From Comamonas sp. B21-038 (GTDB lineage Bacteria > Pseudomonadota > Gammaproteobacteria > Burkholderiales > Burkholderiaceae_C), in contig NZ_CP092462.1 in assembly GCF_022387135.1 (NCBI RefSeq), positions 1,178,001 through 1,242,000 of the forward strand: DNA of 64,000 nt, read 5' to 3'. The position numbers and the translations under genes were made by a program. Below are positions 47,133 to 64,000 of this stretch, in pieces. Positions within the stretch are counted from its first letter, which is position 1. Each line of letters begins with the position of its first letter. A model generated the notes under the pieces. It had not been told where the DNA came from. It did no database searches and saw only the letters and a program-made list of their open reading frames with translations.

Positions 47133-47492
47133 TTATACCGCCATCGGCGCCGTCAACGGCGCATGGTGCTGGTAGCCTTCCAGCCAGAAGTCCGACGGTT
47201 CGACCTTTTCCAGCCATTCGGGCTGGTACTGGCCGGTCACCGCGTAGTCGGGGATGCGGTCCGACAGCACCAGCTTGGGGGATTCAAAGGGCTCGCGCTT
47301 GAGCTGCTCCTGCAGCATGTCCAGGTGGTTTTCGTAGATGTGGGCATCACCGATGAAGTAGGTGAACCAGCGCGGCGTGTAGCCACTCAGGCGCCCCATC
47401 AGGTGCAGCAGCGCGGCGCCTTCGGTCAGGTTGAAGGGTTTGGTCACATTCCATGCTAAGGGGTCTTTTGTCTTCATAGAGTATTTCACCAT
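47133..47492 (-). pseudogene. thyA: thyA (thymidylate synthase) 3' remnant at an island boundary
   Basis: Only the C-terminal ~105 residues of ThyA remain: [46 protein letters not shown], and the conserved tail [14 protein letters not shown]. The catalytic Pro-Cys-His region and the whole N-terminal dUMP/folate part are missing; the ~20 residues preceding PFNL in this frame ([18 protein letters not shown]) are not thymidylate synthase and come from sequence left of the junction, placed near 47430-47450. The fragment cannot be active. The base composition changes abruptly at this point, so the intact gene was probably split by insertion or deletion at the edge of a genomic island. Confidence 0.85.
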
Positions 47493-49407: not shown

Positions 49408-49785
49408 ATGTACGCGGTCCTGAAGCAGGATATGCGTCCAACGTTCACCGTCACAGGTAGTGCTTTAGGTGATGATGCCGCACCCAAATTAGTTGGCACT
49501 GCCTCTGATGCCGCTTCGCTATGGTGTTTGCATGACACTTTCGCTGGGGCACGCATTCTTGGAGTGGACTGCATGATTTGGCAGAGTGCAGCGTCAGCTT
49601 GGTGTTCAAGGCCGGTAGAGCAGGTCTGGGTGGAGCCTGGCCGAGAGACGACGGACGTGTATCTGAAATTTCGTGATGAGCCAGATGCGTTTTACGACGC
49701 GTACACCTTTCGCATTGTCGAAAAGAAGACTGGTGTGGACTGGGTGCCGTTGTTCACCGTTTCGGAGCTGTCCGTCTGTGAGTAG
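49408..49785 (+). CDS. hypothetical protein preceding the HAD genes
   Basis: A 125-residue protein with no family recognised. GGTGGAG lies just before the ATG at 49408; an earlier in-frame ATG at 49294 would add 38 residues overlapping the decayed frame. The C-terminal half has a beta-rich pattern (VEQVWVEPGRETTDVYLKFRDEPDAFYDAYTFRIVEKKTGVDW). Its last codons overlap the GTG start of the first HAD gene by 8 bp, so it is likely translated with it. Confidence 0.5.
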   Translation: MYAVLKQDMRPTFTVTGSALGDDAAPKLVGTASDAASLWCLHDTFAGARILGVDCMIWQSAASAWCSRPVEQVWVEPGRETTDVYLKFRDEPDAFYDAYTFRIVEKKTGVDWVPLFTVSELSVCE

Positions 49786-50293
49786 TCATATTCTTGATTC
49801 GAGCCTTCAGGAGCGCGGTCGGCGCGTGATTTTTCTGGATTTTGACGGTGTGTTGCATCCACTGGGGACGCTTGCTGATGCACGGCCGCCACTTGAGCCG
49901 GCCACCATCAGAGAACGTTGGCCTCAAGCGTTGGAACACCTGGGAATCCTCGCCTCCCTGTTGCATGGTCATCATGAGATTGCAGTGGTCGTCTCCAGCT
50001 CCTGGCGCATGTTTTTGAACGACGAGCAATTGGGTGAACTGCTTGCGCCCATAGGTCCATGGTACGAAGGCTCCGTAGGTCTTCCGTACCAAGGGCGAGC
50101 CATTGCCATCCAAGCTTGGCTTGAGGTTAATCGCGTGGACGACTACCTCATCCTAGACGACCAAGCTGACTACTTTCCTGGATTGGCGAAAGCCTGGCCC
50201 ACGCTCATTCTTTGTGACAGCGCTTCGGGCATTTCTGACGAGCAGATGCAACACCGAATTCGCCAATGGATTGACCATGGCTGTCCCACTTGA
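49778..50293 (+). CDS. HAD-fold phosphatase-like protein 1 (HAD_SAK type)
   Basis: A 171-residue HAD-superfamily protein with all core motifs: FLDFDGVLHP (nucleophile Asp21 and Asp23), VVVSSSWRMF (motif II Ser), and DYLILDDQADYFPG (acidic motif IV). It resembles the HAD domain of bacterial 'Swiss Army Knife' RNA-repair-associated proteins, which would act on 5'/3' nucleic-acid phosphates; this assignment is by motif only. Start is GTG 49778, overlapping the upstream stop. It is followed at 12 bp by a paralogue, and another follows 25 bp after that. Confidence 0.75.
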   Translation: MSSHILDSSLQERGRRVIFLDFDGVLHPLGTLADARPPLEPATIRERWPQALEHLGILASLLHGHHEIAVVVSSSWRMFLNDEQLGELLAPIGPWYEGSVGLPYQGRAIAIQAWLEVNRVDDYLILDDQADYFPGLAKAWPTLILCDSASGISDEQMQHRIRQWIDHGCPT

Positions 50294-50305
50294 GCCCATC
50301 ACTCT

Positions 50306-50878
50306 ATGCGTACCACGAGACCTATTCTTTTTCTGGATTTCGACGATGTCATTTGCCTCAACCAGCCCTATGGTGGATACGATGTACTAAATGCGTTTTC
50401 TCAAGCCTCTCGGGATGGAACACCTATCAATGCCAAAGATGCACTGTGGCCCCGTTTGTTCAATAAGCGCGCTACTCAGTACTTGCAGCAAGTGAATGAG
50501 GAGTTCGCTCCGAACTACGTGCTGTCGACCAGTTGGCGTTGGTTTTTCGAGCGAGACCAATTGGCGCAAACGCTTGAGCTAGCAGGATTGAGCTTTGTTG
50601 CGCAAAACCTGCACCAGGACTGGACTACACCTCAGATTTCACGTGATGCCCAACGAGCCGTAGAAATCAGACGCTGGCTATCAAACCATCCAGAGTCTGC
50701 AAACGCATGGGTCGCACTGGACGATGAGCTGTCTGGAACCGGCTTTTCCACTTGGCCGTGGGACAAGCAAAATTTCGTGGTTCTGTGCCAAGAGGGCGTG
50801 GGACTGCAAGACCCAGAGTATCAGTGCCTGAGGGAGGCATTCGCTCTGCGCATCGGTTCACAGGACCGTTCGAGGTAG
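50306..50878 (+). CDS. HAD-fold phosphatase-like protein 2
   Basis: A 190-residue paralogue: FLDFDDVICL (Asp11, Asp13, but DD instead of DG), VLSTSWRWFF (motif II) and AWVALDDE (motif IV). The inserted region between motifs I and II is longer than in its neighbours and includes several Trp and Phe. It belongs to the same HAD group and lies 12 bp after the first copy. Confidence 0.75.
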   Translation: MRTTRPILFLDFDDVICLNQPYGGYDVLNAFSQASRDGTPINAKDALWPRLFNKRATQYLQQVNEEFAPNYVLSTSWRWFFERDQLAQTLELAGLSFVAQNLHQDWTTPQISRDAQRAVEIRRWLSNHPESANAWVALDDELSGTGFSTWPWDKQNFVVLCQEGVGLQDPEYQCLREAFALRIGSQDRSR

Positions 50879-50903
50879 TTGTAGCTCTTAAGAAATAGCC
50901 CAC

Positions 50904-51395
50904 ATGACTCGACAGGTTCTATATCTGGACTTTGATGGAGTTCTTCACCCGAGCCCCGTATATCGCCATCCCAGGCGGGGCATGTACTTCGGTGTTTCGC
51001 ACCAGCACCATACTTTGTTTGAGAACGCACAAGTCCTTCAAGATGCACTAGCTCCTTATCCGCAGTTAGCTATTGTGTTGTCAACGTCTTGGGTGCGCGT
51101 ATTAGGCTATTCAAGGGCCAAAGCCTATCTGCCCGAGGAACTGCGTCAGCGCGTGATTGGTGCAACGTTCCACAGCCGGCTGAACAAAATGGAGTTTGAC
51201 GCAATGACCCGCGGGGCGCAGGTGCTGGCTGATGCCCGCCGCCGGGGTGTAACTCAGTGGTTGGCCATCGATGATGACAATGACGGCTGGCTGAGCGCTG
51301 CCGAATCGCACCTGGTGCTGACTGACGAGAATCTGGGGCTTGCTAACCCAGAGTCAGTGACAGAACTGGTCGCCAAGCTGAAGAAATTTAATTGA
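50904..51395 (+). CDS. HAD-fold phosphatase-like protein 3
   Basis: A 163-residue paralogue: YLDFDGVLHP (Asp9, Asp11), IVLSTSWVRVLG (motif II) and QWLAIDDDNDGW (motif IV). It lies 25 bp after copy 2. The three copies are clearly related in motif order but diverged in length and sequence, so they arose from old duplications or separate acquisitions, not a recent repeat. Confidence 0.75.
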   Translation: MTRQVLYLDFDGVLHPSPVYRHPRRGMYFGVSHQHHTLFENAQVLQDALAPYPQLAIVLSTSWVRVLGYSRAKAYLPEELRQRVIGATFHSRLNKMEFDAMTRGAQVLADARRRGVTQWLAIDDDNDGWLSAAESHLVLTDENLGLANPESVTELVAKLKKFN

Positions 51396-51529: not shown

Positions 51530-51856
51530 GTGGTCACAAGAAAAAGCGTACCTATCGACAGGGCCCTGAAATCTTTGGGAAAGAATATCGAGCTTGCGCG
51601 GCGCAGGCGCGGGGTCTCTCAAGCGGATTTCGCGTCGCGCATGGGCGCTTCGGTGAGCACCTTGCGTCGGCTGGAGGATGGCCATCCAGGCACAGCGCTC
51701 ACGTACCTGGCCAGCGCGCTGCTGGTGTTTGGTGAGTTGGAGAAGCTGAGCCTCATGATGGACACGCAGTTTGATGCCACGGGACTGGCGCTGATGGACT
51801 CAGAACTACCAATCCGGATTCATACAAAGCGTCGTCACATGCCCAAAGCCTTCTGA
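51530..51856 (+). CDS. HipB-like XRE regulator without an adjacent hipA
   Basis: A 108-residue HTH protein: SLGKNIELARRRRGVSQADFASRMGASVSTLRRLEDGHPGTALTYLASALLVFGELEKL matches the HipB-type antitoxins. GTG 51530 is preceded by AGGA. The usual downstream hipA kinase is absent; the next gene is the SNF2-like helicase, with a GTATGTA/TACATAC inverted repeat touching the helicase start. It may therefore regulate the defence locus instead of a toxin (inference). Confidence 0.8.
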   Translation: MVTRKSVPIDRALKSLGKNIELARRRRGVSQADFASRMGASVSTLRRLEDGHPGTALTYLASALLVFGELEKLSLMMDTQFDATGLALMDSELPIRIHTKRRHMPKAF

Positions 51857-51911
51857 CGGTCTAGCTCAATGCACCTTTTTTGGACCTCGCCAAGGCTTGC
51901 AATTATCATTC

Positions 51912-51944
51912 GTATGTAACAAAAATCTAGAACTTCGTACATAC
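51912..51944. promoter_or_regulatory. inverted repeat abutting the helicase start
   Basis: GTATGTA (51912-51918) and TACATAC (51938-51944) are exact reverse complements ending at the base before ATG 51945. Placed between a HipB-like gene and the defence operon, it may be an operator; binding there would also block translation start access or the promoter. Confidence 0.45.
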
Positions 51945-54905
51945 ATGCTTTCCTTTGCTCCAGGTGCCCGTGTTCTTATCCGTGATGAAGAGTGGTTAGT
52001 GAGACGGGTTGACCCGTCAAAGGACGGTGGATGGTTACTGACTTGTGACGGTATTTCTGAGCTGGTTCGAGGGCGCGAAGCACTTTTTTTGACAGCGCTA
52101 GAAGGACCTATTGAGGTGCTGGACCCCGCGCAGACCAAGCTGGTTGCCGACACAAGCCCCACTTACAACGCCACCATGTTGTATTTGGAGAGCATGCGCA
52201 GGCGCAGCATTGCCAATGATGAGCGCATCCATCTGGGGCACAGGGGGGTGATGAACCTCGTTCCCTACCAACTGGACCCTGCCTTACAAGCTTTGCACCA
52301 ACCGCGTGCACGCATCTTGATTGCCGATGCGGTGGGCTTGGGTAAGACGCTGGAAGCTGGCATTTTGGCCACCGAACTCATTCAGCGCGGTCGGGGCAAG
52401 CGCATTTTGGTGGTAACCCAAAAAGCCATGCTCACGCAGTTTCAAAAGGAGTGGTGGAGCCGTTTTTCCATTCCTTTGGTACGTTTGGACTCGCTGGGCT
52501 TGGCGCGTGTACGTAACCGCATTCCAGCTAATCACAACCCGTTCAACTACTTCGACCGCAGCATCATCTCGATGGATACGCTCAAGAGCAATCTTGAGTA
52601 CCGTAACTATTTGGAGAATGCTTGGTGGGACATCATCGTCATTGATGAATGTCATAACGTTGCTGCTCGTGCCGGGGAATCTGGGCTATCCCGCCGCGCT
52701 CGTCTGGCTCGTTTGCTCTCTAACCGTTCCGACACCTTGATGCTGCTGTCGGCCACACCCCACGATGGCTCTGCGCGTAGCTTTGCGTCTTTAATGAGCT
52801 TGTTGGACGCCACGGCCATTTCTGACCCCGACCACTACACGCCGCAAGACTTTCGCAACAAAGGCTTGGTAATTCGGCGTTTCAAAAAGGACATTCGCGA
52901 CCAGGTCTCTGCAGATTTCCAGGACCGCATTACTACGTGCCTGCGCCAAAGCGCCTCCGCACATGAAGAAGCGGCCTATCGTGCATTGTTAGACATTCGT
53001 TTCACCCAGGGAGGCAACCATAAAGCTGGTCGCCAGCAAGAGCTGCAGCGCATCGGCATGCAAAAGGCTCTGTTCTCCAGCCCAAAGGCAGCTTTGCAAT
53101 CCACAAAGCGGCGCATTGCACTGTTGGAAGGTCGCCCAGCTATCTCAGATGACGAGCAAATAGAGGTTACTGGCCTGCAAGAGTTTCAGGAATCGCTGCA
53201 GGCACTCGTCAACGACAGCCGTGCGCACAGCTTTAGCCGATACCAAAAGCTGTTGCAGCTGCTGCAATCCAGTGACTTCGGCTGGAGCAAAGACGACGCA
53301 GGCGACCGCTTGGTGATTTTTTCGGAGCGCATTGAAACCCTGCACTGGCTCCAAGAGCAGCTTACTCGGGACTTGAAGCTCAAACCCAAGCAATTGGAAA
53401 TTTTGCACGGCAGCATGAGTGACATTGACCAACAAGAGCTGGTGGAGCGATTTGGCCGAAAAGACGACCCCATCCGTGTACTTGTCTGCTCAGACGTGGC
53501 TAGTGAAGGTTTGAACCTGCACTACTTCTGCCACCGTTTGGTGCACTTTGATTTGCCGTGGTCTTTGATGACCTTCCAGCAGCGCAATGGTCGTGTGGAC
53601 CGTTACGGCCAGCAGCACCAGCCGCACATCGTCTACCTGTTCACCGAAACCGTGAATGAGAAAATTCGGGGTGACCTGCGCATTCTGGAAATTCTGGAGC
53701 GTAAGGACGAGCAGGCCAACTTTAACTTAGGTGACCCATCCGCCTTCTTAAATGTGTACGACCCGGAAAAGGAGGTTGAAAAAGTCAGTGACTACATGGC
53801 ACAAGGCGTCACGCCAGAACAGGTGGAGGCCGAGCTAGACCATGCTGCTACCACCACAGGCGATAACGACGCAGACTTCTTGATGGAGCTGTTCGGTGGT
53901 GGTGCTGATTCGGCTCCAGACACAACCACTGCTACAGCCGAACACACAGGCTCCAGCATCGACCAAATTGATGAGCCCGCCTCGCTGTTTGATAGCGACT
54001 ACCACTATGCCAAGGCTGCGCTCACGCAGCTCAATAAAGAAGACACCTTGTGCCAGTGGACCCCTGCCGATGAAACAAAGATGATTTCGTTGACGGCCCC
54101 GCGTGACCTGCAAGAACGCCTCAAGCAGCTGCCTAAAGAAGTACAGGCTGATAACGACTACTACACCCTCACTACCGATACTCAGCGCGTGGTCCTAGCC
54201 ATTGAAACTGCGCGTCAAGCTCGTGCAGAGGAGGAGAGCTGGCCCCAACTGCATTACCTGTGGCCCCAACACCCCATCATGGAATGGATTGGCGACCGTG
54301 TCCTTACCCAATTCGGTCGACACTGCGCGCCGGTGCTGGAGTGTTTGAAGCTGCAAGCTAAAGAGCAAGCTTTCATCTTGATGGGCTTGGTACCCAACCG
54401 CAAAGGCCAACCACTGCTGGTGCAGTGGCAGGTGGCTCACCGTGTGCCCAATGCTCAGGGGCAAGGTGCTTTTACCCTGCAATCGTTTGACGACTTTGCC
54501 GCGCGTGCAGGCCTCAAGGCCGGAAAACTACCTAACCGAGTTCAACTCCAAGACGCTCATCCCGCCTTGCAGACCTTGCAGACCGCCTTGCCTGACGCCG
54601 TAGCAACCATGCACCAGCACATGGTGCAAGCGCAAAGCAGCTTTGCCCAGCAACTGTCCACCCGACTTACAGATACTTTGGCTGAGTTGGAACGCCTGCA
54701 AGGAAAACAAGTAGAGCAGCTTGCTCTCGACCTGGAAGGCCAGATTGAAACCATCAAACGTGGCCGTTTAGAGCAGCGCACCCAGCAAATCAACCGCGTT
54801 TTTGATGACTACCGCCTGTGGGTGCAAGACACCCTGACCACTGAGCCCCAGCCATGGATTCAGGTCATCGCCGCAGTCTGCCACCCCGAAAGAGCCGGAG
54901 CGTAA
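51945..54905 (+). CDS. SNF2-type helicase of a putative anti-phage locus
   Basis: A 986-residue SF2/SNF2-like ATPase. The N-terminal ~90 residues form a small beta domain (GARVLIRDEEWLVRRVD). Walker A is IADAVGLGKTLEAGIL (about residue 130), motif II is VIDECHN (about 232), motif III is LLSATPH (about 266), and motifs V/VI are CSDVASEGLNLHYF and QQRNGRVDRYGQ (about 515-555). A long C-terminal region is partly coiled. Such helicases partner with large methyltransferases in systems like DISARM or BREX-related loci. ATG 51945 is chosen over an upstream in-frame start at 51897, as the family begins with this Met. The methyltransferase gene starts 6 bp after its stop. Confidence 0.88.
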   Translation: MLSFAPGARVLIRDEEWLVRRVDPSKDGGWLLTCDGISELVRGREALFLTALEGPIEVLDPAQTKLVADTSPTYNATMLYLESMRRRSIANDERIHLGHRGVMNLVPYQLDPALQALHQPRARILIADAVGLGKTLEAGILATELIQRGRGKRILVVTQKAMLTQFQKEWWSRFSIPLVRLDSLGLARVRNRIPANHNPFNYFDRSIISMDTLKSNLEYRNYLENAWWDIIVIDECHNVAARAGESGLSRRARLARLLSNRSDTLMLLSATPHDGSARSFASLMSLLDATAISDPDHYTPQDFRNKGLVIRRFKKDIRDQVSADFQDRITTCLRQSASAHEEAAYRALLDIRFTQGGNHKAGRQQELQRIGMQKALFSSPKAALQSTKRRIALLEGRPAISDDEQIEVTGLQEFQESLQALVNDSRAHSFSRYQKLLQLLQSSDFGWSKDDAGDRLVIFSERIETLHWLQEQLTRDLKLKPKQLEILHGSMSDIDQQELVERFGRKDDPIRVLVCSDVASEGLNLHYFCHRLVHFDLPWSLMTFQQRNGRVDRYGQQHQPHIVYLFTETVNEKIRGDLRILEILERKDEQANFNLGDPSAFLNVYDPEKEVEKVSDYMAQGVTPEQVEAELDHAATTTGDNDADFLMELFGGGADSAPDTTTATAEHTGSSIDQIDEPASLFDSDYHYAKAALTQLNKEDTLCQWTPADETKMISLTAPRDLQERLKQLPKEVQADNDYYTLTTDTQRVVLAIETARQARAEEESWPQLHYLWPQHPIMEWIGDRVLTQFGRHCAPVLECLKLQAKEQAFILMGLVPNRKGQPLLVQWQVAHRVPNAQGQGAFTLQSFDDFAARAGLKAGKLPNRVQLQDAHPALQTLQTALPDAVATMHQHMVQAQSSFAQQLSTRLTDTLAELERLQGKQVEQLALDLEGQIETIKRGRLEQRTQQINRVFDDYRLWVQDTLTTEPQPWIQVIAAVCHPERAGA

Positions 54906-54911
54906 TTCCCC

Positions 54912-57900
54912 ATGCGAGTTTTAGAAGCCGTTCAAACCTTCGCTGGCATTGCCAACGAAAATGAGTTTTACAGCCACCACTACCTGTCAGAAGTCTTCAA
55001 AGGCGACATCAAAGACCGCCTTTCAGGATGGGATGCTGAGGAAGCTCAGCACCCCGGCGATGAAGCCCACCGCGCCCCAGCCAAACGCTTGCAAGGCTGG
55101 GCGCAACGCTGGTTCTCTTTGCGCAACCAAGTGCAGCGCGGCAAAGATGAAAATGAGCGTTGGCACAGTTTTGTGCAAATGCAAACCGGCCTGCTGCAAG
55201 CACTGGGCTATGCACAGCCGCCGCTTAGCTGCACGCTGCATGAGTTCAGCTCTGGCCTGCCTGTGCCGCTGTGGCTCTTGCAAGGGCAGCAGCTGGCCAT
55301 CATTCCAGCCTACCAGCCCAGCCGTGAAGACGATGACCTGCTGGACCACCAACTCACCGCCTTCCACTATGGAGCAGAACCTTTGCCACTGCAAATTAAG
55401 GGTGAGTCGTGGGCCGAGCTGCTGTCGGAGGCGGTTTTCGGTGGTGAGCAACCACCGCGCTATGTGCTGTTGTTGGGTTTGGATGAATGGCTGTTGCTGG
55501 ACCGCTACAAATGGCCCAACAACCGCGCCTTGCGCTTTGCGTGGACTGACATTCTGGACCGTAAAGACGCTGACACCCTCAAAGCCTGCGCGGCCCTGCT
55601 GCACAACGACAGCCTGGCCCCCGGCGAAGGCAATAGCCTGCTGGAAAGCCTTGACGAAAACGCCCACAAACACGCCTTTGGCGTGAGCGAAGACCTCAAG
55701 TACGCGCTGCGTGAAGCTATTGAGTTGCTGGGCAACGAAGCCGCCAGCCAGCTTGAAGCACAAGCCGTGGGCCACAAGAAAAGCGTGTACTCCGGTCAAT
55801 ACAAGCTCGACGCCGACCAGCTCAGCCTGGAGTGCCTTCGCATGGTCTACCGCCTGCTGTTCATGTTCTATATCGAGGCGCGGCCAGAGCTGGGCTATGT
55901 GCCCATCACCAAGAGCGAGGTTTACCTCAAAGGCTACAGCCTTGAAAGCCTGCGTGACTTGGAGCTTCAACCCTTGCCCACCCCGCAGGCGCAAGAAGGT
56001 AACTACTTTGACCAAACCCTGCGTCGCCTGTTTAGTTTGGTGGCCCAGGGTTGCGGTCTGGCGGGTGAGCAGGCCGAACTGCGCGATGTGCGCGATACCA
56101 ACCTGCCCAGGCTGCAAGGTGCCAAAGACACTTTTGCGCTGGCCCCGCTGGACAGCCGCTTGTTTGACGACAGCGGCGTACCGCTGCTGGCCAAGGTGCG
56201 TTTTCCCAACCTGGTGTGGCAACGCGTGATTAAGCTGCTGTCGCTGAGCAAACGCAGCGGCAAGGGCCGCCGCTCAGGCCGCGTCAGCTACCAGCTACTG
56301 TCCATTAACCAATTGGGGGCGGTGTATGAGGCCTTGCTCAGCTACCGCGGATTCTTTGCGCAAGAAGACCTGTACGAGGTCAAACCCGCCCCCAAAAAAG
56401 CCAGCGCCGCTGCCAGCGATGATGAGGGTGACGATGGCGATGAAGCCGAAGCCTCCAATACCCGCAAAGCGCGCGACACCGACAACAGCGCCGACATGCT
56501 GGAAAACGCATGGTTTGTGCCCCGCAGCCGCATTGACGAATACCGTGATGATGAAAAGGTGTACGACGTTGAAGACGGCCGCCGCCGCTTGCGCATGTAC
56601 CCCAAGGGCACGTTCATCTACCGCTTGGCTGGCCGCGACCGCCAAAAAAGCGCCAGCTACTACACCCCGCAAGTGCTCACCCAGTGCTTGGTCAAATACG
56701 CGCTCAAAGAGCTGCTGTCTCCAGAAAACGGCCGCGTGCAAAAGGCCGATGACATCTTGGCACTCACCGTGTGTGAGCCTGCAATGGGCAGCGCAGCCTT
56801 CTTGAACGAAGCCGTGAACCAGTTGGCCGAGGCCTATCTGGAGCGCAAACAAGCCGAACTCAAGCAACGCATTCCCCACGACAAGTACGCGCAAGAGCTG
56901 CAAAAAGTGCGCATGTACCTGGCCGACCGTAACGTGTTCGGTGTGGACTTAAACCCCGTGGCCGTTGAGTTGGCCGAAGTGTCACTGTGGCTCAACGCCA
57001 TTTATGGGGAAGAAGAAAACGGCCAACCCTTGCCAGCCCGCGTGCCATGGTTTGGCTACCAATTGTTTGCAGGAAACAGCCTCATTGGTGCCCGCCATCA
57101 GGTCTACAACGCCGCGGCCCTGAAAAAAGGCGCCAAACCCGCCTGGCATGAAGAGTCCCCGCGCCGCGTTACCGCCAGTGCGCCGCGCCGTGCGGATGAA
57201 ATTTGGCACTTCTTGCTGCCAGACCCTGGTATGGCCAACTACGGCGACAAAGACGCCAAAAAACTCTACTCCGCAGACTTCGGCCGCCTGAAGACTTGGC
57301 GCAAAGCCTTCTGCGCCCCCTTGGCTGCGCACGAAGTGGCTCGCCTGCAGCAGCTCAGCCAGTGTGTGCAAAAGCTCTGGGAAGAGCACACTAAAGCCTT
57401 GGCGCGTGACCGCGCCCTGACTGAAGATGCTGTGGCCGTCTGGCCTGAAACGGTGCAAGCATTACAAGCCAAATCGGCCTCTAGCGCAGATACGGCTGGC
57501 GCAAACAGCTCTCAAAAGCGTATCAGCCGTGCTGAGAAAGAGCATATTCGCCAGCAAGGCCTGCTCAATGAAGATGGCGACTTGGCCACACCGTTCCGCC
57601 GCCTCAAGCTAGTGATGGACTACTGGTGCGCCTTGTGGTTCTGGCCCATTACACGCAGCGAAGAGCTACCCACCCGCGAGCAGTGGTGGATGGAGGTCGG
57701 AGCCATCTTGGAAGGTAATGTGGTGGACTTGGTTCCCACAGTCAGCCAGCAGTTTGGGCTGAACTTTGCCGCCAGCACTGTGCCTACCGTAGAAGCTGAA
57801 ACCGTGGTGCCTGATGTGCAGTCTGATATTTTTGGTGGTGTACAACTGGCCTTGTCAGCTCAGCAGCAAGACGACAAGCACCAATTGCACGACAAGCTTG

Positions 57901-60086
57901 GCCAATTGCGCATCAGTAAGCTGCGTGAGCATTTTCCCAATATCAAGCTGGTGGAAGGTATTGCTGACCAGCGGCGCTTTATGCACTGGGAGCTCTGCTT
58001 TGCTGATGTTTTGCGGCAGCGCGGTGGCTTTGATTTGATTCTGGGGAACCCTCCGTGGCTCAAAGTGGAGTGGAACGAGTCAGGTATTTTGGGTGAGCGC
58101 AACCCCATGTTTGCCGTGCGCAAAATCAGCGCCAGCGATTTGGCCAAGCTTCGCGCCGAAGCCTTTACCCAGTTCCCCGGCCTGCAAACCGACTGGACCG
58201 ACGAGCTACAAGAGGCCGAAGGTACGCAAAACTTTCTCAACGCCGCGCAGAACTACCCGCTGCTCAAAGGCGTGCAAACCAACCTCTACAAATGCTTTAT
58301 CCCGTTGGCTTGGGGGCTAGGCAGCGCGCACGGAGTGGCCGGTTTGCTCACGCCAGAAGGGCCTTATGACGACCCTAACGGCAGTGGCTTGCGCGAGGCG
58401 CTGTACCAGCGGCTTGCCGCCCATTTCCAGTTTCAAAACGAGTTCAAGCTGTTCCCAATTGGCAATCGCAACAAATTCGGCATCAACATTTATGGCCCGG
58501 TGAAGCCTGCTCCTGGCTTTGACCTGATTGCCAATCTCTACAGCCCCAACACTATCGAGGCCTGCTACCGGCACGACGGCATGGGCCTGCCGGACGGCAT
58601 TAAAAACGCAGAAGACCAGTGGAACACCGCCGGCCACCGCGACCGCATCGTGCGTGTGGACGAGGCCGCGCTGGTCACTTTTGCCCAGCTCTACGACGAA
58701 CCCGGCACCCCGGCGCGCCGCGCCCGCCTGCCCGCGCTACACGCAGGTGCTTTAAGCAGCGTTCTGGCCAAGCTGGCCGCTTACTCGCGTCGCTTGGCTG
58801 ATGTAGGTGATGGCTACTTTTCCACGGTCATGTTTGACGAAACCTATGCACAGCGGGATGGAACCATCAGCCGCCGCCCCAGCACCGACCCTGGTTTTGC
58901 CGCCACGCCGCACGACTGGGTGCTGTCCGGCCCGCATTTTTTTGTCGCCAACCCGTTTCACCAAACCCCGATGCGAGTGTGTAACACCCACCGGGCTTAC
59001 GAGAAACCGGATTTAGTAACCCTGCCCGACGACTACCTGCCGCGCACCAATTACCGGCCAATGGACGACCGCGTCGAATACCTGCGCCGCACGCCCCGCG
59101 TCAGTTGGCTGGAGCCGGGTGAAACGCAGGGGAGGCCGGTGACGGAGTTTTTCCGGCTGGCATTTCGTGGAATGTTGTCGAATTCAGGCGAGCGCACCCT
59201 GACGGGCACGCTGATTCCACCGCAAACCGCCCATATACATGGCGTGCAGTCCACTGCCTTTCAAGATACCGCCGACTTGCTATCGGCAGGCTGTATCAGC
59301 AGTGCATTGGTGGCCGACTGGTACATGAAATCCATGGGGCGCAGCAATTTGATGGGCACCTGGTTGCAACTGCCGCGTTTTGCCTTGTCGCCCGCGTTGG
59401 CCAGCCGCTACCTCACTCTCAACTGCCTAACCACCCACTACGCTCCACTGTGGGAAGAAGTCTATGACTTGGACTTTGCCGACCAAAGCTGGAGCCAGCC
59501 TAGCAATCCACGGCTACCACAAGATTTTTGGTCATCGCTGACCAGCACGTGGACGCGCGACTGCGCTTTGCGTAGCGACTATGCCCGCCGCATGGCTCAG
59601 GTCGAAATCGATGTGCTGGCGGCACAGGCGCTGGGTCTGACGCTGGAAGAACTACTGCTGATTTATCGTGTGCAATTCCCCGTCATGCAAGGCTATGAGC
59701 GCGATACCTGGTACGACATCAAAGGCCGCATCGTCTTTACCAACAGCAAGGGCTTGGTCGGAGTGGGCTTGCCCCGCAAAGGCGGCCCAAAAACCCCGCG
59801 CACCCGCATGACCACGCCTGATGGCAAGGTGGACATCCGCCCCTTGGGCTGGGACGACCTGTGGGCCTACGCCAACGCCGAAGCCGACGACAGCCCCGAA
59901 GTGCTGCACGCCGGCGGCAAGCCCAAGGTGCCCGACGGCACGGTGATTACCCAATGGGTGCTGGACGACACCCTGCCCGGCGGCCCCCGAGAGATAGAGC
60001 GCAAGTACGTGGCGCCCTTTGTGCGCGCCAATCGTGAGGACGACTACCGCATGGCGTGGGCATTCTTTTCAGAGACTCAAAATTAA
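54912..60086 (+). CDS. giant Eco57I/PglX-like DNA adenine methyltransferase
   Basis: A 1724-residue protein with a class I methyltransferase of the Eco57I/COG1002 type in its second half: SAM-binding CEPAMGSAAFLNEAVNQL (about residue 622), the acidic VFGVDLNPVAVELAEVSLWLNAIY (about 675), and the catalytic NPPW motif in DLILGNPPWLKVEW (about 1040). The N-terminal ~600 residues (FYSHHYLSEVFKGDI at the start) are typical of large defence methylases and may hold a nuclease-like or specificity domain. The C-terminal 600 residues are probably target recognition. It would mark host DNA so the associated helicases attack unmodified phage. Length is greater than most PglX or DrmMI proteins. It is 6 bp after the helicase gene. 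Confidence 0.87.
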   Translation: MRVLEAVQTFAGIANENEFYSHHYLSEVFKGDIKDRLSGWDAEEAQHPGDEAHRAPAKRLQGWAQRWFSLRNQVQRGKDENERWHSFVQMQTGLLQALGYAQPPLSCTLHEFSSGLPVPLWLLQGQQLAIIPAYQPSREDDDLLDHQLTAFHYGAEPLPLQIKGESWAELLSEAVFGGEQPPRYVLLLGLDEWLLLDRYKWPNNRALRFAWTDILDRKDADTLKACAALLHNDSLAPGEGNSLLESLDENAHKHAFGVSEDLKYALREAIELLGNEAASQLEAQAVGHKKSVYSGQYKLDADQLSLECLRMVYRLLFMFYIEARPELGYVPITKSEVYLKGYSLESLRDLELQPLPTPQAQEGNYFDQTLRRLFSLVAQGCGLAGEQAELRDVRDTNLPRLQGAKDTFALAPLDSRLFDDSGVPLLAKVRFPNLVWQRVIKLLSLSKRSGKGRRSGRVSYQLLSINQLGAVYEALLSYRGFFAQEDLYEVKPAPKKASAAASDDEGDDGDEAEASNTRKARDTDNSADMLENAWFVPRSRIDEYRDDEKVYDVEDGRRRLRMYPKGTFIYRLAGRDRQKSASYYTPQVLTQCLVKYALKELLSPENGRVQKADDILALTVCEPAMGSAAFLNEAVNQLAEAYLERKQAELKQRIPHDKYAQELQKVRMYLADRNVFGVDLNPVAVELAEVSLWLNAIYGEEENGQPLPARVPWFGYQLFAGNSLIGARHQVYNAAALKKGAKPAWHEESPRRVTASAPRRADEIWHFLLPDPGMANYGDKDAKKLYSADFGRLKTWRKAFCAPLAAHEVARLQQLSQCVQKLWEEHTKALARDRALTEDAVAVWPETVQALQAKSASSADTAGANSSQKRISRAEKEHIRQQGLLNEDGDLATPFRRLKLVMDYWCALWFWPITRSEELPTREQWWMEVGAILEGNVVDLVPTVSQQFGLNFAASTVPTVEAETVVPDVQSDIFGGVQLALSAQQQDDKHQLHDKLGQLRISKLREHFPNIKLVEGIADQRRFMHWELCFADVLRQRGGFDLILGNPPWLKVEWNESGILGERNPMFAVRKISASDLAKLRAEAFTQFPGLQTDWTDELQEAEGTQNFLNAAQNYPLLKGVQTNLYKCFIPLAWGLGSAHGVAGLLTPEGPYDDPNGSGLREALYQRLAAHFQFQNEFKLFPIGNRNKFGINIYGPVKPAPGFDLIANLYSPNTIEACYRHDGMGLPDGIKNAEDQWNTAGHRDRIVRVDEAALVTFAQLYDEPGTPARRARLPALHAGALSSVLAKLAAYSRRLADVGDGYFSTVMFDETYAQRDGTISRRPSTDPGFAATPHDWVLSGPHFFVANPFHQTPMRVCNTHRAYEKPDLVTLPDDYLPRTNYRPMDDRVEYLRRTPRVSWLEPGETQGRPVTEFFRLAFRGMLSNSGERTLTGTLIPPQTAHIHGVQSTAFQDTADLLSAGCISSALVADWYMKSMGRSNLMGTWLQLPRFALSPALASRYLTLNCLTTHYAPLWEEVYDLDFADQSWSQPSNPRLPQDFWSSLTSTWTRDCALRSDYARRMAQVEIDVLAAQALGLTLEELLLIYRVQFPVMQGYERDTWYDIKGRIVFTNSKGLVGVGLPRKGGPKTPRTRMTTPDGKVDIRPLGWDDLWAYANAEADDSPEVLHAGGKPKVPDGTVITQWVLDDTLPGGPREIERKYVAPFVRANREDDYRMAWAFFSETQN

Positions 60087-60153
60087 TAGCTGCCTGCGCT
60101 TATCTAGCAAGCGCTAGAGGCACTTTTGACCAAATATTCAAGAAAGCCGAGCG

Positions 60154-61916
60154 ATGAGCAAGCAAACCATTGAAACCTTTTTTGCTGGCAAGAATCTGGT
60201 GGTGCCCAGCTACCAGCGCGACTACGCCTGGAAGGAGCGCAACATTGACGAGCTGTTTGCAGATATAGAGGAAGCGCTGGAGGTGGGTGGTCATTACCTG
60301 GGTACCTTCATCCTGTCGCAACAATCACCGTCTGCCCCAGTTTTTGTGGTGGATGGGCAGCAGCGTCTCACTACCTTGACCATGCTGCTCGATGCCCTGA
60401 TTGGCAGCTTGGAGAACGCCGACATTAGGACGGTGATGCGCAGCACCTACATCCAGCACCCGCTGACGGGCTACAAATTTCAGGTGCTGGGGGAGAATAA
60501 AAACTTCTTCGAGGCCATGCTGGCCAAGCAAAACCCGAATCCACCTCGGCGGGTCAAACTCGGTTGAAGCAGGCTTACCAGCACATTCGCTTGCGGGTGC
60601 AGGACTTGGTTAAGCAAGGTGGTCAGCCGCTGGTGCTGCAGTGGCTGACTACCTTGACCCGTATGGAAGTGCTGGAGTTCATTGAGCGCGACGAGGGCAA
60701 GGCCATTCGCATGTTCCAGACCGTGAATGACCGAGGGGTGCCTCTGGCCAAGATGGACATTGTCAAGAGCTTGCTGGTCTATTACTCCAACCGCTACCTG
60801 GGCGGTGTTTTGGACCAGAGCATTGCCATGCAGTTTGGCAAAGCCTTTCGCTCTTTCAACAACGTCAAGGCCCTGGCCAACGAAGCTGGCTACCAGATAC
60901 GGCATATTGACCGCGATTCGTTTCGCGAAGACGATGTGCTGCGCTACCACTACTTCGCCTTCAATGCGGGGCCTTTTGGTGTGGATGCTGGCGGGGACTA
61001 CAACGCGACCACGGAATCCGTGCTGGAGAGCTTTTTGAAGCCAGCGCTGCAAAAGCTGCGCTCTGACCCATCGAGGCTGCGCGCTTTTATTGAGGCATAC
61101 ACCGCTGACCTGACGGGCTTTTTCGGTGCCTTGGAGGCCTTGGTTCAATCCACGCGGACAGACCGCGCCAGCTACATGCTGCTTGTGGTGCAAGACCTGT
61201 CTGCCACCCTGTATCCCATGCTGATTCGCCTGCACTTGATGGGCTGGCTTCAGCAGACGTCCTCCATCGACAGCCGAACCCTGCAGTCTTTGATGGAGTT
61301 GGTGGACCTGCGGGTCTTCAAGCTGCGCGGCACCAATCCGCAGGCTGATGTGTTTGCCATCACCCGGAGTCTGGGCCACACAACGGTTGAGCAGGTGGTG
61401 CAGGGGCTGCAGAGCTTTTGCAACAAGTTCATGCCCGATGCGCTGTTGACATCGCGTCTCGTCAGCGAAGACTTGTATCGCAATATGGGCCTGCAGCGCA
61501 TACTGTGGGAGGAGGAAGACCAAACCTCGCTTTTTCTGCAACAGTCTCCGGCAGACATCCTAGAACTGTCCCGTTTGAATGCCGCCGGCCTGTCGGTAGA
61601 GCATGTGCTGCCGCAAAACCCAGCGTTTGACATTGCCAGCTACGGCTTCAAGGACGCCGAGGAGTTCGAGGAGCACAAGCACCGTCTGGGCAATTTGTTG
61701 CTACTGGAAAAGGGCCTGAACAGTGCCTGCCAGAACGCTACGGTGGAGTCCAAGGTCACCGCCCCCACGCTGTATGCTGCCTCGGGATTGCTCTCGGTCA
61801 AGGCGCTTGCCGCCAGCCGAGTGGGCAAACCGCTGGGCTATAAGCTGGAAAACATTGAGGCACGTAGCCAGTCTTTGGCGCAGCTCATGCTGAAGCGTTG
61901 GCCAATTACGGCGTAA
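60154..61916 (+). pseudogene. DUF262-DUF1524 (GmrSD-like) protein with one frameshift
   Basis: Two overlapping frames make one protein of about 585 residues. The first (ATG 60154, ends 60567) has the DUF262 motifs YQRDYAWKERNIDELFADIE and VDGQQRLTTLTMLLDAL. The second continues from around 60545 with RLKQAYQHIRL and ends at 61916 with the DUF1524 HNH motif EHVLPQNP and HRLGNLLLLEKGLN. The two would join if one C were added in the CCACCTCGG run near 60541-60549. DUF262-DUF1524 proteins (GmrSD family) are nucleases that cut modified DNA and need NTP. Whether the gap is decay, phase variation or a base-call error cannot be told from sequence. Confidence 0.8.
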
Positions 61917-62041
61917 TGCAAGTCGTGTGCCAGTTCATCCAAGAAGATTTGCTGTGTTAAAGCCGCAGAAATAGGCAGGTAGCGACTTAGCCCCACACAA
62001 CCGAAGAACTCCACAATAACCAAAAAACGATAGTCTGTACT

Positions 62042-64000
62042 ATGCTCCCTTCCTTGCTTGCCCGCGATATCCAAACCGGACTCAAACAATTCTTGGTGTC
62101 GAGTTATGAGCCAGCCGATTCTTTTATGCATGGGCTGATGCGCCGCTTTACAGATGAAGAGGCGGCGTGGCTCAAGGGCCCTTATGTGCAGATGGGCCTA
62201 CCGTTTGCGGTGGGCAATGCGGGGCGTTCGTTTTTCTCCTCCTTTGAAACAGAGTTTCCAGGCTATCTGCACCAAGAGATGGCTTGGCAGCGCCTATCGA
62301 GCCAGCATTTGGCGGCAAGTACCTTGGTGGCCACGGGTACGGGTTCGGGTAAGACGGAGTGTTTTTTATTTCCGGTCTTAGACCATTGCGTGCGAAGTAA
62401 AAAAGCGGGAGAGGCCGGCATCAAAGCCTTGGTTATCTACCCCATGAATGCGTTGGCGACCGACCAAGCGCGCCGCATTGCAGAGCTAGTAGCCAAGGTG
62501 CCTGCGTTTGCAGGCCTGCGCGTGGGGTTGTATGTGGGCGGTGCGGCTGGTGCACCTGGCACGGGCATGGTGATGACGCCTACATCGGTGATTACCGACC
62601 GTGACACCTTGCGCAAGAACCCGCCAGACATCTTGCTGACCAACTACAAGATGCTGGACTACCTGATGTTGCGCCCTAAAGACCGCAAGCTTTGGGCGAA
62701 CAACGGGCCGACTACTTTGCGCTATGTGGTGGTGGATGAGTTACACACCTTTGACGGCGCCCAAGGTACTGACTTGGCGCTGCTGCTGCGCCGCTTGCGG
62801 GCACGTTTAAAGACGCCAGAAGGACATCTGATTTGTGCTGGTACATCGGCGACGTTGGGCGGCTCATCGGGTACGGAACCGCTGCGCGACTATGCACGCC
62901 AAGTGTTTGGCGTGCCGTTTGCGGAAGACGCAGTGGTGACGGAAAACCGTCTATCCGTAGATGATTTCTTAGGCGATGCCATGGTGAGCTATATGTTCAT
63001 GTGGACGCCAGCCTTAGATGCGGCCCTAGACCCAGAGCTCTCCGCATCGCCTGAGCATGCAGTGCAGGCTTGGTTTGAGGTCTTCTTTCCGGGAGTGCAG
63101 CAACCCGCTGGGGTTGAGGTGGTTAACAGCACACAGTGGCGCCACGCATTGGGGGGCACCTTAAACAACATCAGTTGTTTGTGAATTTGCTGCGTTTGAT
63201 GAAAAGCGGTGTGGCGCACTATGACGCGCTGGAAGATGCATTTGCACGCAATATGCCGGCCGCAAGTCGTGTTCAAGTGGCGCGTGTATTGGATGCTTTG
63301 TTGGTGCTGGTGGCGTGGGCCTTGCGTGACGGTAAGCAACCCTTGGTGACGCTGCGTGTTCAGCTGTGGGTGCGAGAGCTGCGCCGTATGGTGGGCAAGC
63401 TAGCACTCAACCCTGAAGATGTTTGCTTGCGCAGCGAGCGCGATTTGCCTGCGGAGCGCGAAGGTGTGTACCTGCCCATGGTGCAGTGCCGCCAATGCCG
63501 CACAACTGGGTGGATATCGCGCATCGTGCCCGGTAGCAGCAAGCTGTCCACGAAGCTCGATGAGATTTACAACACCTGGTTTGCAAGTAGACCTGAAGCT
63601 GCAAGGTTGTATGCGGCTGCAAGCGTAGGCACTAGGCCAGAGGTCCAAGGCATCCATCAATTTGCCTGTGTAGCTTGTGGCAATATGCAAGCAGGTGATA
63701 AGGAGTGTCTGGCCTGTGGTCACCAAGAGTTGTTGCAAACATTCCAGGTGACGGCTCAGCGCTCGCAAGTATCAGGCAATGTGCATTACACGCGACATGA
63801 CGATACTTGCCCCTGCTGCGGCGAGCGCGGTGAATTACTTTTGTTGGGTGCACGTAATGCCACCTTGGGCTCTCAAGTGGTCGATGCGAGTTGGGCTAGT
63901 CGCTTTAACGATGACAAAAAGCTGATTGCATTCTCAGACTCCGTACAAGATGCAGCCCACCGTGCTGGTTTTTTTGGAGCGCGGACTTGGCAGAACAATG
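62042..64000 (+). pseudogene. giant DUF1998-type DEAD/DEAH helicase, frameshifted and cut by the window end
   Basis: The first frame (ATG 62042, stop 63182-63184) holds the N-terminal helicase core: GTGSGKTECFLFPVLDHC (Walker A, about residue 100), ALVIYPMNALATDQARRI, LLTNYKMLDYLMLRP and VVDELHTFDGAQGTDLALLLRRL (motif II). After the run of six G at 63151-63156 the next frame continues without stop to 64000 with LFVNLLRLMKSG, Cys-rich zinc-ribbon segments (CRQCRT, CVACGNM, CLACGH, CPCCGERGE) and the hallmark LIAFSDSVQDAAHRAGFFGART. One more G would restore the full frame. This is the type of large helicase found in Druantia (DruE), DISARM and related loci, typically followed by DUF1998. Confidence 0.82.

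Follow-up and report, generated by a model that had tools for sequence, protein, structure and literature searches.

An ARMADA type II operon in Comamonas sp. B21-038 with a probably exchangeable cargo slot between armB and armC

The right-hand end of a 64 000-nucleotide stretch of the genome of Comamonas sp. B21-038 (G000:C1:1178001-1242000, within a single-contig genome of 5.18 Mb; hereafter the window) carries genes for an SNF2-like helicase, a 1724-residue Eco57I-type methylase, a DUF262-DUF1524 protein and a giant helicase, all reading rightward, and raises the question of which defence system they form and whether the DUF262-DUF1524 gene is a member of it. A sequence-only reading of the window had listed these genes and proposed a system that it could not name, with the nuclease gene either as a part of it or as an embedded module. 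The genes are all present, as judged from open reading frames (ORFs) and Pfam matches, and the host system can be named: alignment with the proteins of Escherichia coli ATCC 8739 identifies it as ARMADA type II (PMC12458937). The locus is most probably (at about 75%) the ARMADA type II operon armA-armB-armC-armD, with the armB-armC junction acting as an exchangeable slot for cargo genes.

Identity of the operon

ARMADA type II is a named anti-phage system (Bell et al., 2025, preprint, PMC12458937), and the same name is used for it in PMC13192584. The preprint gives the order as a BrxHII-like helicase, a PglX-like methylase, a YprA helicase and a RelE-UvrD helicase, and reports a test of the ATCC 8739 system by deletion. 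When the DNA past the end of the window is included, the order in Comamonas is armA-armB-(DUF262-DUF1524)-armC-armD, so that the same four proteins keep the A-B-C-D order, though another gene parts B from C. ORFs were called on length alone, so that errors may occur in the starts and in genes that are small or overlap. The features of the locus are as follows.

51897..54905, + strand: armA-like gene, a BrxHII/RapA-type SNF2 helicase of 1002 amino acids (aa), with a possible ATG start at 51945
54912..60086, + strand: armB-like gene, a PglX-like/type IIG-like adenine methyltransferase of 1724 aa, with an NPPW motif read from the translation
60087..62041, + strand: armB-armC cargo slot of 1955 bp, a junction that varies among relatives
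60154..60567, + strand: N-terminal part (137 aa) of a DUF262-DUF1524 (GmrSD/BrxU-like) nuclease, its frame lost at the 3' end
60564..61916, + strand: remainder of the DUF262-DUF1524 nuclease (450 aa) in a different frame, with an HNH-type C-terminus
62042..63184, + strand: N-terminal part (380 aa) of an armC-like YprA-family helicase, with a Walker A motif (GTGSGKT) read from the translation
63136..64000 and on to window-equivalent 68466 (L002:12136-17466), + strand: remainder of the armC-like helicase (1776 aa) in the other frame
Window-equivalent 68463-70553 (L002:17463-19553), beyond the window and following armC: armD, a UvrD helicase of 696 aa, extended at its N-terminus

The Arm proteins match those of ATCC 8739 almost end to end, at 34-47% identity: ArmA at 46.6% over 997 columns, ArmB at 46.4% over 1792 columns, ArmC at 43% in its N-terminal part and 34.5% over 1804 columns in its second part, which aligns up to residue 1739 of 1776, and ArmD at 42%, an alignment of 698 columns that begins at residue 5 and takes in the N-terminal domain. 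A C-terminal nuclease of the Vsr type is among the features of ArmC in ARMADA type II. Pfam assigns SNF2 and Helicase_C to the armA-like ORF, Eco57I (8.9e-13) to the armB-like ORF, GmrSD_N (DUF262; 7.9e-24) and GmrSD_C (DUF1524; 9.8e-16) to the slot gene, and DEAD (1.8e-22) to the armC-like helicase, with MZB (7.5e-13) and Helicase_C (3.7e-8) past the end of the window. The MZB match, which we take to be the DUF1998 region, agrees with the DUF1998-type helicase read from the letters. ArmD matches UvrD and GajB (Pfam and PADLOC); Pfam RelE was not matched at an E value of 1e-3.

The PADLOC matches taken by themselves point to several systems. The armA-like ORF matches DrmD (3.9e-96), the armB-like ORF matches type IIG models best (1.3e-255) and DrmMI as well (7.2e-46), although the gene belongs to a four-gene system, and the N-terminal part of armC matches DruE3 (3.8e-58). 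The PADLOC search that the sequence-only reading had proposed thus returned DrmD, type IIG, HEC-06/Orf5, DruE and GajB models and no single system, a mixed picture which arises because no family named ARMADA is among the PADLOC v2.0.0 matches at the locus. The DrmD-like helicase and DrmMI-like methylase are shared with Class 1 DISARM, and the relationship of the locus to DISARM proposed at first is borne out to that extent; Class 1 DISARM itself was rejected, as the ORFs scanned include no separate drmA/drmB/drmC set and a single YprA-type helicase with an MZB region is found instead. Extension past 64000, likewise proposed, led to the MZB region and then to the UvrD helicase of armD and a Zorya I system, whereas the anticipated PLD domain was not found among the ORFs scanned up to Zorya, a scan that did not cover small ORFs. 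Druantia III offers the nearest PADLOC model for the DruE-like helicase and was rejected in turn, the gene here being flanked by DUF262 and armD and not by DruH.

Occupancy and contents of the armB-armC junction

A scan of a species-level genome collection with an alignment of the ArmB C-terminus as the query produced 320 relatives, from which the best 80 loci were taken, and two further loci came from viral contigs. A junction was counted as filled when it held more than 300 bp of extra DNA. Among the 80 loci, armB-armC is filled in 55 of 67 measurable cases (12/67 having 300 bp or less), armA-armB in 8/68 and armC-armD in 0/39 (Fisher P values of 2e-17 and 1e-18 for the contrasts, with kinship ignored); in the 36 loci with all three junctions measured the counts are 27, 2 and 0, respectively. 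Addition of the viral contigs gives 56 filled armB-armC junctions out of 69. The rarer insertions between armA and armB (L060, L066, L085, L090, L093, L103, L106 and L107) contain ORFs of 287-910 aa in L060, L093, L106 and L107 and small ORFs or little sequence in the others. Two contigs of metagenome-assembled genomes in this set, L034 and L044, are labelled Bordetella parapertussis and Akkermansia muciniphila and carry ARMADA loci close in kind to those of betaproteobacteria; the labels may be binning errors.

Two other samples bear on the same junction. Within the family, armB-armC is filled in all nine loci in which both genes were found, the window included, with slots of 1.5 to about 10.8 kb and a different gene set in each; armB is cut short in one of these genomes (G360) and was not found in a tenth (G379), and three of the nine loci (L049, L054 and L057) recur in the set of 80. 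In a class-wide sample drawn regardless of similarity, the system occurs in 4/369 genomes besides the source genome, with two junctions filled (about 1.4 and 3.6 kb), one empty and one at a contig end, so that 2/3 measurable junctions are filled. At the other extreme, ATCC 8739, strain KH_005 and plasmid pYLPD7b have a one-base overlap of armB with armC.

The cargo was collected as 226 ORFs of at least 90 aa from 68 loci (56 filled slots, seven loci ending before armC, the window and four family relatives), of which 104 are singletons and the rest form 38 shared clusters; the 56 filled slots hold 49 distinct gene sets. The cargo is mostly oriented with the operon (170 ORFs of at least 150 aa directed with it and seven opposed) and mostly lies close to both flanking genes, the first ORF starting within 93 nt of the armB stop in 44/56 slots and the last ending within 98 nt of the armC start in 39/56. 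Representatives of 50 of the 142 clusters (34 multi-member and 16 singletons) were scanned against Pfam and ten against PADLOC; 38 of the 50 showed a Pfam family at an E value of 0.001 or better. The families include MotA_ExbB and OmpA (ZorA- and ZorB-like), EH_Signature, SNF2, GmrSD_N, KAP, SIR2 and Ham1, together with AbiEi/AbiEii, HipA, Schlafen AlbA, PIN, protein kinase, AAA_21 with RloB, PLD helicases, HNH, Mrr, RES, sacsin and dynamin. With clusters grouped by hand, 42/56 filled slots contain one or more clusters of the defence, toxin-antitoxin or helicase/nuclease type.

These contents could also be explained if armB-armC were simply the sole place where an insertion spares translational coupling, the cargo then being unrelated to ARMADA as in ordinary defence islands. 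The tight spacing of armA-armB and armC-armD (median gaps of 3 and -3 nt) suggests that insertions at those junctions may cost more, the remaining 14/56 filled slots contain no cluster counted as defence-like, and a glutathione S-transferase family is found in L042, with the same cluster in L033; apparent remnants of old cargo (L092 and L099) also persist. The prevalence of defence-like genes and the 170/177 co-directional longer ORFs speak against this explanation, yet selection without any coupling inside defence islands could yield the same two patterns; it is held at somewhat less than even odds.

Zorya genes illustrate how self-contained the cargo can be. Judged by cluster, the armB-armC junction contains ZorA-ZorB-ZorE sets in L042, L062, L093 and L106 (the L042 proteins match ZorA2 and ZorE2 in PADLOC) and Zorya-type sets of other kinds in L044 and L083; in L096 and L110, the contigs of which end before armC, Zorya genes are found downstream of armB. 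The E. coli array of Zorya II, Druantia III and ARMADA II (PMC12458937) resembles these loci in carrying Zorya together with ARMADA; there Zorya stands beside ARMADA, while among the relatives considered here it stands inside armB-armC in six loci and in the window's genome a Zorya I follows armD. This Zorya I (L003:732-8962, window-equivalent 71732-79962) is complete, with ZorA, B, C and D at full length (PADLOC), and is preceded by a fragment that looks by eye like an insertion sequence (L003:1-531).

Self-sufficient cargo of this kind (the ZorA-ZorB-ZorE sets, an AbiEi-AbiEii pair and HipA) speaks against the idea that the cargo consists of dedicated effectors triggered by ARMADA as a back-up layer, beyond mere co-expression, as does the occurrence of the window's DUF262 family away from ARMADA. 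Small cargos that have no obvious sensing partner fit the idea better: a protein kinase in L088, a Schlafen-type protein in L081 and a SIR2-type protein that forms a pair with an NTP pyrophosphatase of the Ham1 type in two loci (L048:5502-6967 and L049:11637-13105). Back-up effectors embedded in core loci of BREX and BREX-related systems have moreover been proposed in print (Rakesh & Krishnan, 2026; PMC12839542), with GmrSD among the variable nucleases there; those loci differ from the present ones, which have one preferred junction and nested Zorya genes, and a search of that paper's text found no mention of DISARM, YprA or Zorya. On balance, dedicated effectors are unlikely.

One cargo family, cluster c0, consists of 190-276-aa proteins in seven slots, in one of which it is the sole ORF of at least 90 aa. 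The one member scanned has no Pfam or PADLOC match, and the cluster is a candidate for a new defence gene or an ARMADA partner gene. Its members are located as follows.

L040:2244-3020, L043:13558-14283, L045:11679-12251, L057:15982-16812, L061:10057-10791, L065:10427-11158 and L072:11762-12508: members of cluster c0

The comparison also supports the placing of the window's DUF262-DUF1524 gene outside the ARMADA system, as one of many alternative cargos, which accords with the embedded GmrSD-like module considered at first. The alternative, a fixed and separate uncharacterized system with the DUF262 protein as a core subunit, draws on the recurrence of two DUF262 families in the slot (the window and 8/56 filled slots, two of the eight being the short remnants in L092 and L099); neither family occurs in the other 48/56, 12/67 slots of the 80 loci contain 300 bp or less, and E. 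coli ARMADA works without DUF262 (PMC12458937). Members of the family are also found outside ARMADA. Among 399 family genomes, the only relative of the slot gene at an E value of 1e-30 or better besides the source genome is in G373, where no arm gene was found on a 13-kb stretch of its contig, and another relative is carried by a Sphaerotilus plasmid, the annotation of which shows no ARMADA gene for 10 kb around it. A DUF262-based system is therefore very improbable.

The gene itself retains recognizable motifs. Alignment with intact homologues, which are 588-598 aa long and form a single ORF in L043, L075 and L086, places the DUF262 motif DGQQR within VVDGQQRLTTL, and the DHIYP-like motif of the DUF1524 HNH domain appears as EHVLPQ followed by HRLGNLLLLE, matching the intact proteins. 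An AlphaFold model of the L043 homologue (predicted local distance difference test score of 64) gave Foldseek matches to 9jfl (DndI system) and SspE with TM scores of 0.2-0.3, which are too weak to use.

The closest published parallel is BREX with BrxU (PMC8565348), in which a DUF262-DUF1524 type IV gene also lies inside a methylase-based defence operon and, as tests there showed, adds complementary protection. BrxU is located between brxC and pglX, while the nuclease gene here is located between the methylase and the YprA helicase; a shared rule of insertion after the methylase was dropped for this reason. In addition, the junction found in the window takes many other cargos in relatives. By analogy, the chance that the predicted nuclease complements the range of ARMADA may be about even. 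Section 5 of the ARMADA preprint, in its accessible passages, describes a strict gene order, and its passages on insertion do not mention a cargo slot; the slot itself was not found in print, in a search whose scope did not extend to supplements and subscription papers.

Exchange of cargo and the state of this copy

Pairs of related loci place the boundaries of the variable segment at the gene ends. In L022 and L025 the last 680 aligned bases of armB are 93.7% identical and the first 2.5 kb from the armC start are 92.6% identical; in both loci the matching stretch breaks off about 25 nt or less from the end of armB and the next one opens 2 nt ahead of the armC start, and the two cargos (the armB-armC gap of L022 being 2728) show no match to each other. 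Comparable breaks, with the identities of the two flanks, are found for L044/L078 (95% and 87%), L046/L068 (94% and 76%) and L086/L094 (81% and 95%), the last pair carrying two different DUF262 families. Cargo is partly common to L028/L097 and to L081/L097, and apparent remnants are seen in L091, L092 and L099, so that insertion and decay occur as well.

A tree of ArmB (81 rows, computed by a quick method with Shimodaira-Hasegawa-like approximate likelihood-ratio support only, and leaving out L080 and, for lack of sequence or because of doubtful slots, L032, L036, L050, L056, L090 and L103) shows repeated occupancy by the same kinds of cargo. The Zorya label requires six changes, at least five of them being forced by the starred branches; the window's DUF262 family requires four, with at least four forced; and the empty label requires 14 for 14 rows, with 11 forced. 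These changes indicate that slot occupancy turns over fast.

The most likely route of exchange would be homologous recombination in which the armB and armC ends of a resident operon pair with those of an incoming one, since this agrees with the homology breaks and calls for no specialized enzyme. The homology arms would be the conserved 0.5-0.7 kb at the 3' end of armB and the beginning of armC, recombination with an incoming ARMADA would swap the DNA between them, and the cargo would then be expressed with the operon, presumably by shared transcription. ArmB is expected to mark self DNA, ArmA, ArmC and ArmD would attack unmarked phage DNA, and the DUF262-DUF1524 enzyme might cut phage-modified DNA hidden from ARMADA, as BrxU complements BREX. 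It is tentatively proposed, at a confidence short of an even chance, that ARMADA II is a chassis in which whole modules such as Zorya II, DUF262 nucleases, KAP, AbiE, SIR2-Ham1 and unknown families are swapped at armB-armC by recombination between the conserved ends, the cargo acting in concert with ARMADA against phages that evade it.

A number of observations weigh against an exchangeable slot of this kind. The 80 loci were ranked on similarity to the window's ArmB, and they include near-copies, such as L075/L086 with flanks 99.8-99.9% identical. The slot is empty in 60/60 E. coli loci among the matches listed from 518 E. coli genomes, with a junction within six bases of that of ATCC 8739, from which it follows that the cargo is dispensable for function. 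The eight insertions between armA and armB and the 14 filled slots without a defence-like cluster point the same way. In the pairs compared, armB is less similar further upstream (85% for L022 and L025, with one unaligned stretch), which confines the strongly conserved arm to the last 0.5-0.7 kb, and on the ArmB tree the Zorya label shows some clustering (9/500 shuffles are as low), so that part of its pattern reflects shared descent. The solved relatives matched by the DUF262 enzyme, in sequence and weakly in structure, are 9jfl (DndI system) and SspE, both concerned with phosphorothioated DNA, and not BrxU. To these are added the breaks in the frames of the DUF262 gene and armC in this genome.

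The frame breaks qualify the sequence-only description of a DUF262-DUF1524 protein and a giant helicase: the domains of both are present, and each is spread over two overlapping ORFs in different frames. With the frames of two genes broken, the activity of this copy is doubtful, and it may be inactive or mis-sequenced. Elsewhere armC is a single stop-free ORF of 2129-2199 aa in six of the nine other family genomes with a match (G081, G393, G360, G034, G297 and G333) and is interrupted in three, by one stop in the matched stretch in G262, by a stop and a split in G256 and by a split in G379, so that intact copies exist and interrupted ones are not rare. Programmed frameshifting in armC was considered and rejected, as no conserved site is seen, on thin evidence: of eight relatives, two could be aligned at the site, two had no match and four matched with the site uncovered.

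It is conceivable, though the odds are judged to be rather below one half, that the ARMADA genes and cargo of this genome are pseudogenes in the course of being lost. Changed frames in two of the five genes, the three interrupted armC genes of the family and the lack of a conserved frameshift site in the two relatives alignable there are consistent with decay. An assembly error would look alike, however, armA, armB, armD and the four Zorya genes are of full length, and the pattern of the slot as exchangeable cargo site rests on other genomes.

Surroundings and possible significance

The locus lies in a region of distinct composition, as had been noted from the sequence, with a G+C content of 0.53-0.61 rightward of 48001 and mostly 0.60-0.72 leftward, where three 2-kb windows are lower (0.495, 0.569 and 0.595). 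The broken thyA described next to it exists as a 3' fragment at 47133-47492 (- strand), while an intact thyA is located about 42 kb to the right (L003:18733-19569, - strand), and the two bracket an island of about 42 kb. The C-termini of the two are only distantly alike, and the fragment was rejected as the displaced end of the intact gene. Three large ORFs beside the intact thyA (479, 744 and 856 aa) look by eye like tandem tyrosine recombinases and suggest a recombinase-trio element that targets thyA; a blastn comparison of the two ends for an attachment repeat gave only matches of 14-24 nt (E value about 0.5). Upstream of armA, three consecutive small ORFs at 49673-51395 share an LDFDxV motif, which by eye resembles that of HAD phosphatases, and are followed by a helix-turn-helix-type ORF at 51530-51856.

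The probable exchangeable slot in ARMADA II accounts for the fragments of DISARM, Druantia, type IIG and DUF262 systems that the defence annotation library reports at this locus, and it means that one defence system of several genes can house others within its own operon at one preferred place. Innate defences may thus be exchanged as cassettes inside a system, beyond the side-by-side arrangement of islands, and if the chassis proposed above is correct, the slot would be a good place to look for unknown defence genes. A simple search rule follows, in which genes of unknown families between armB and armC, such as cluster c0 with its seven loci, are candidate defence genes.

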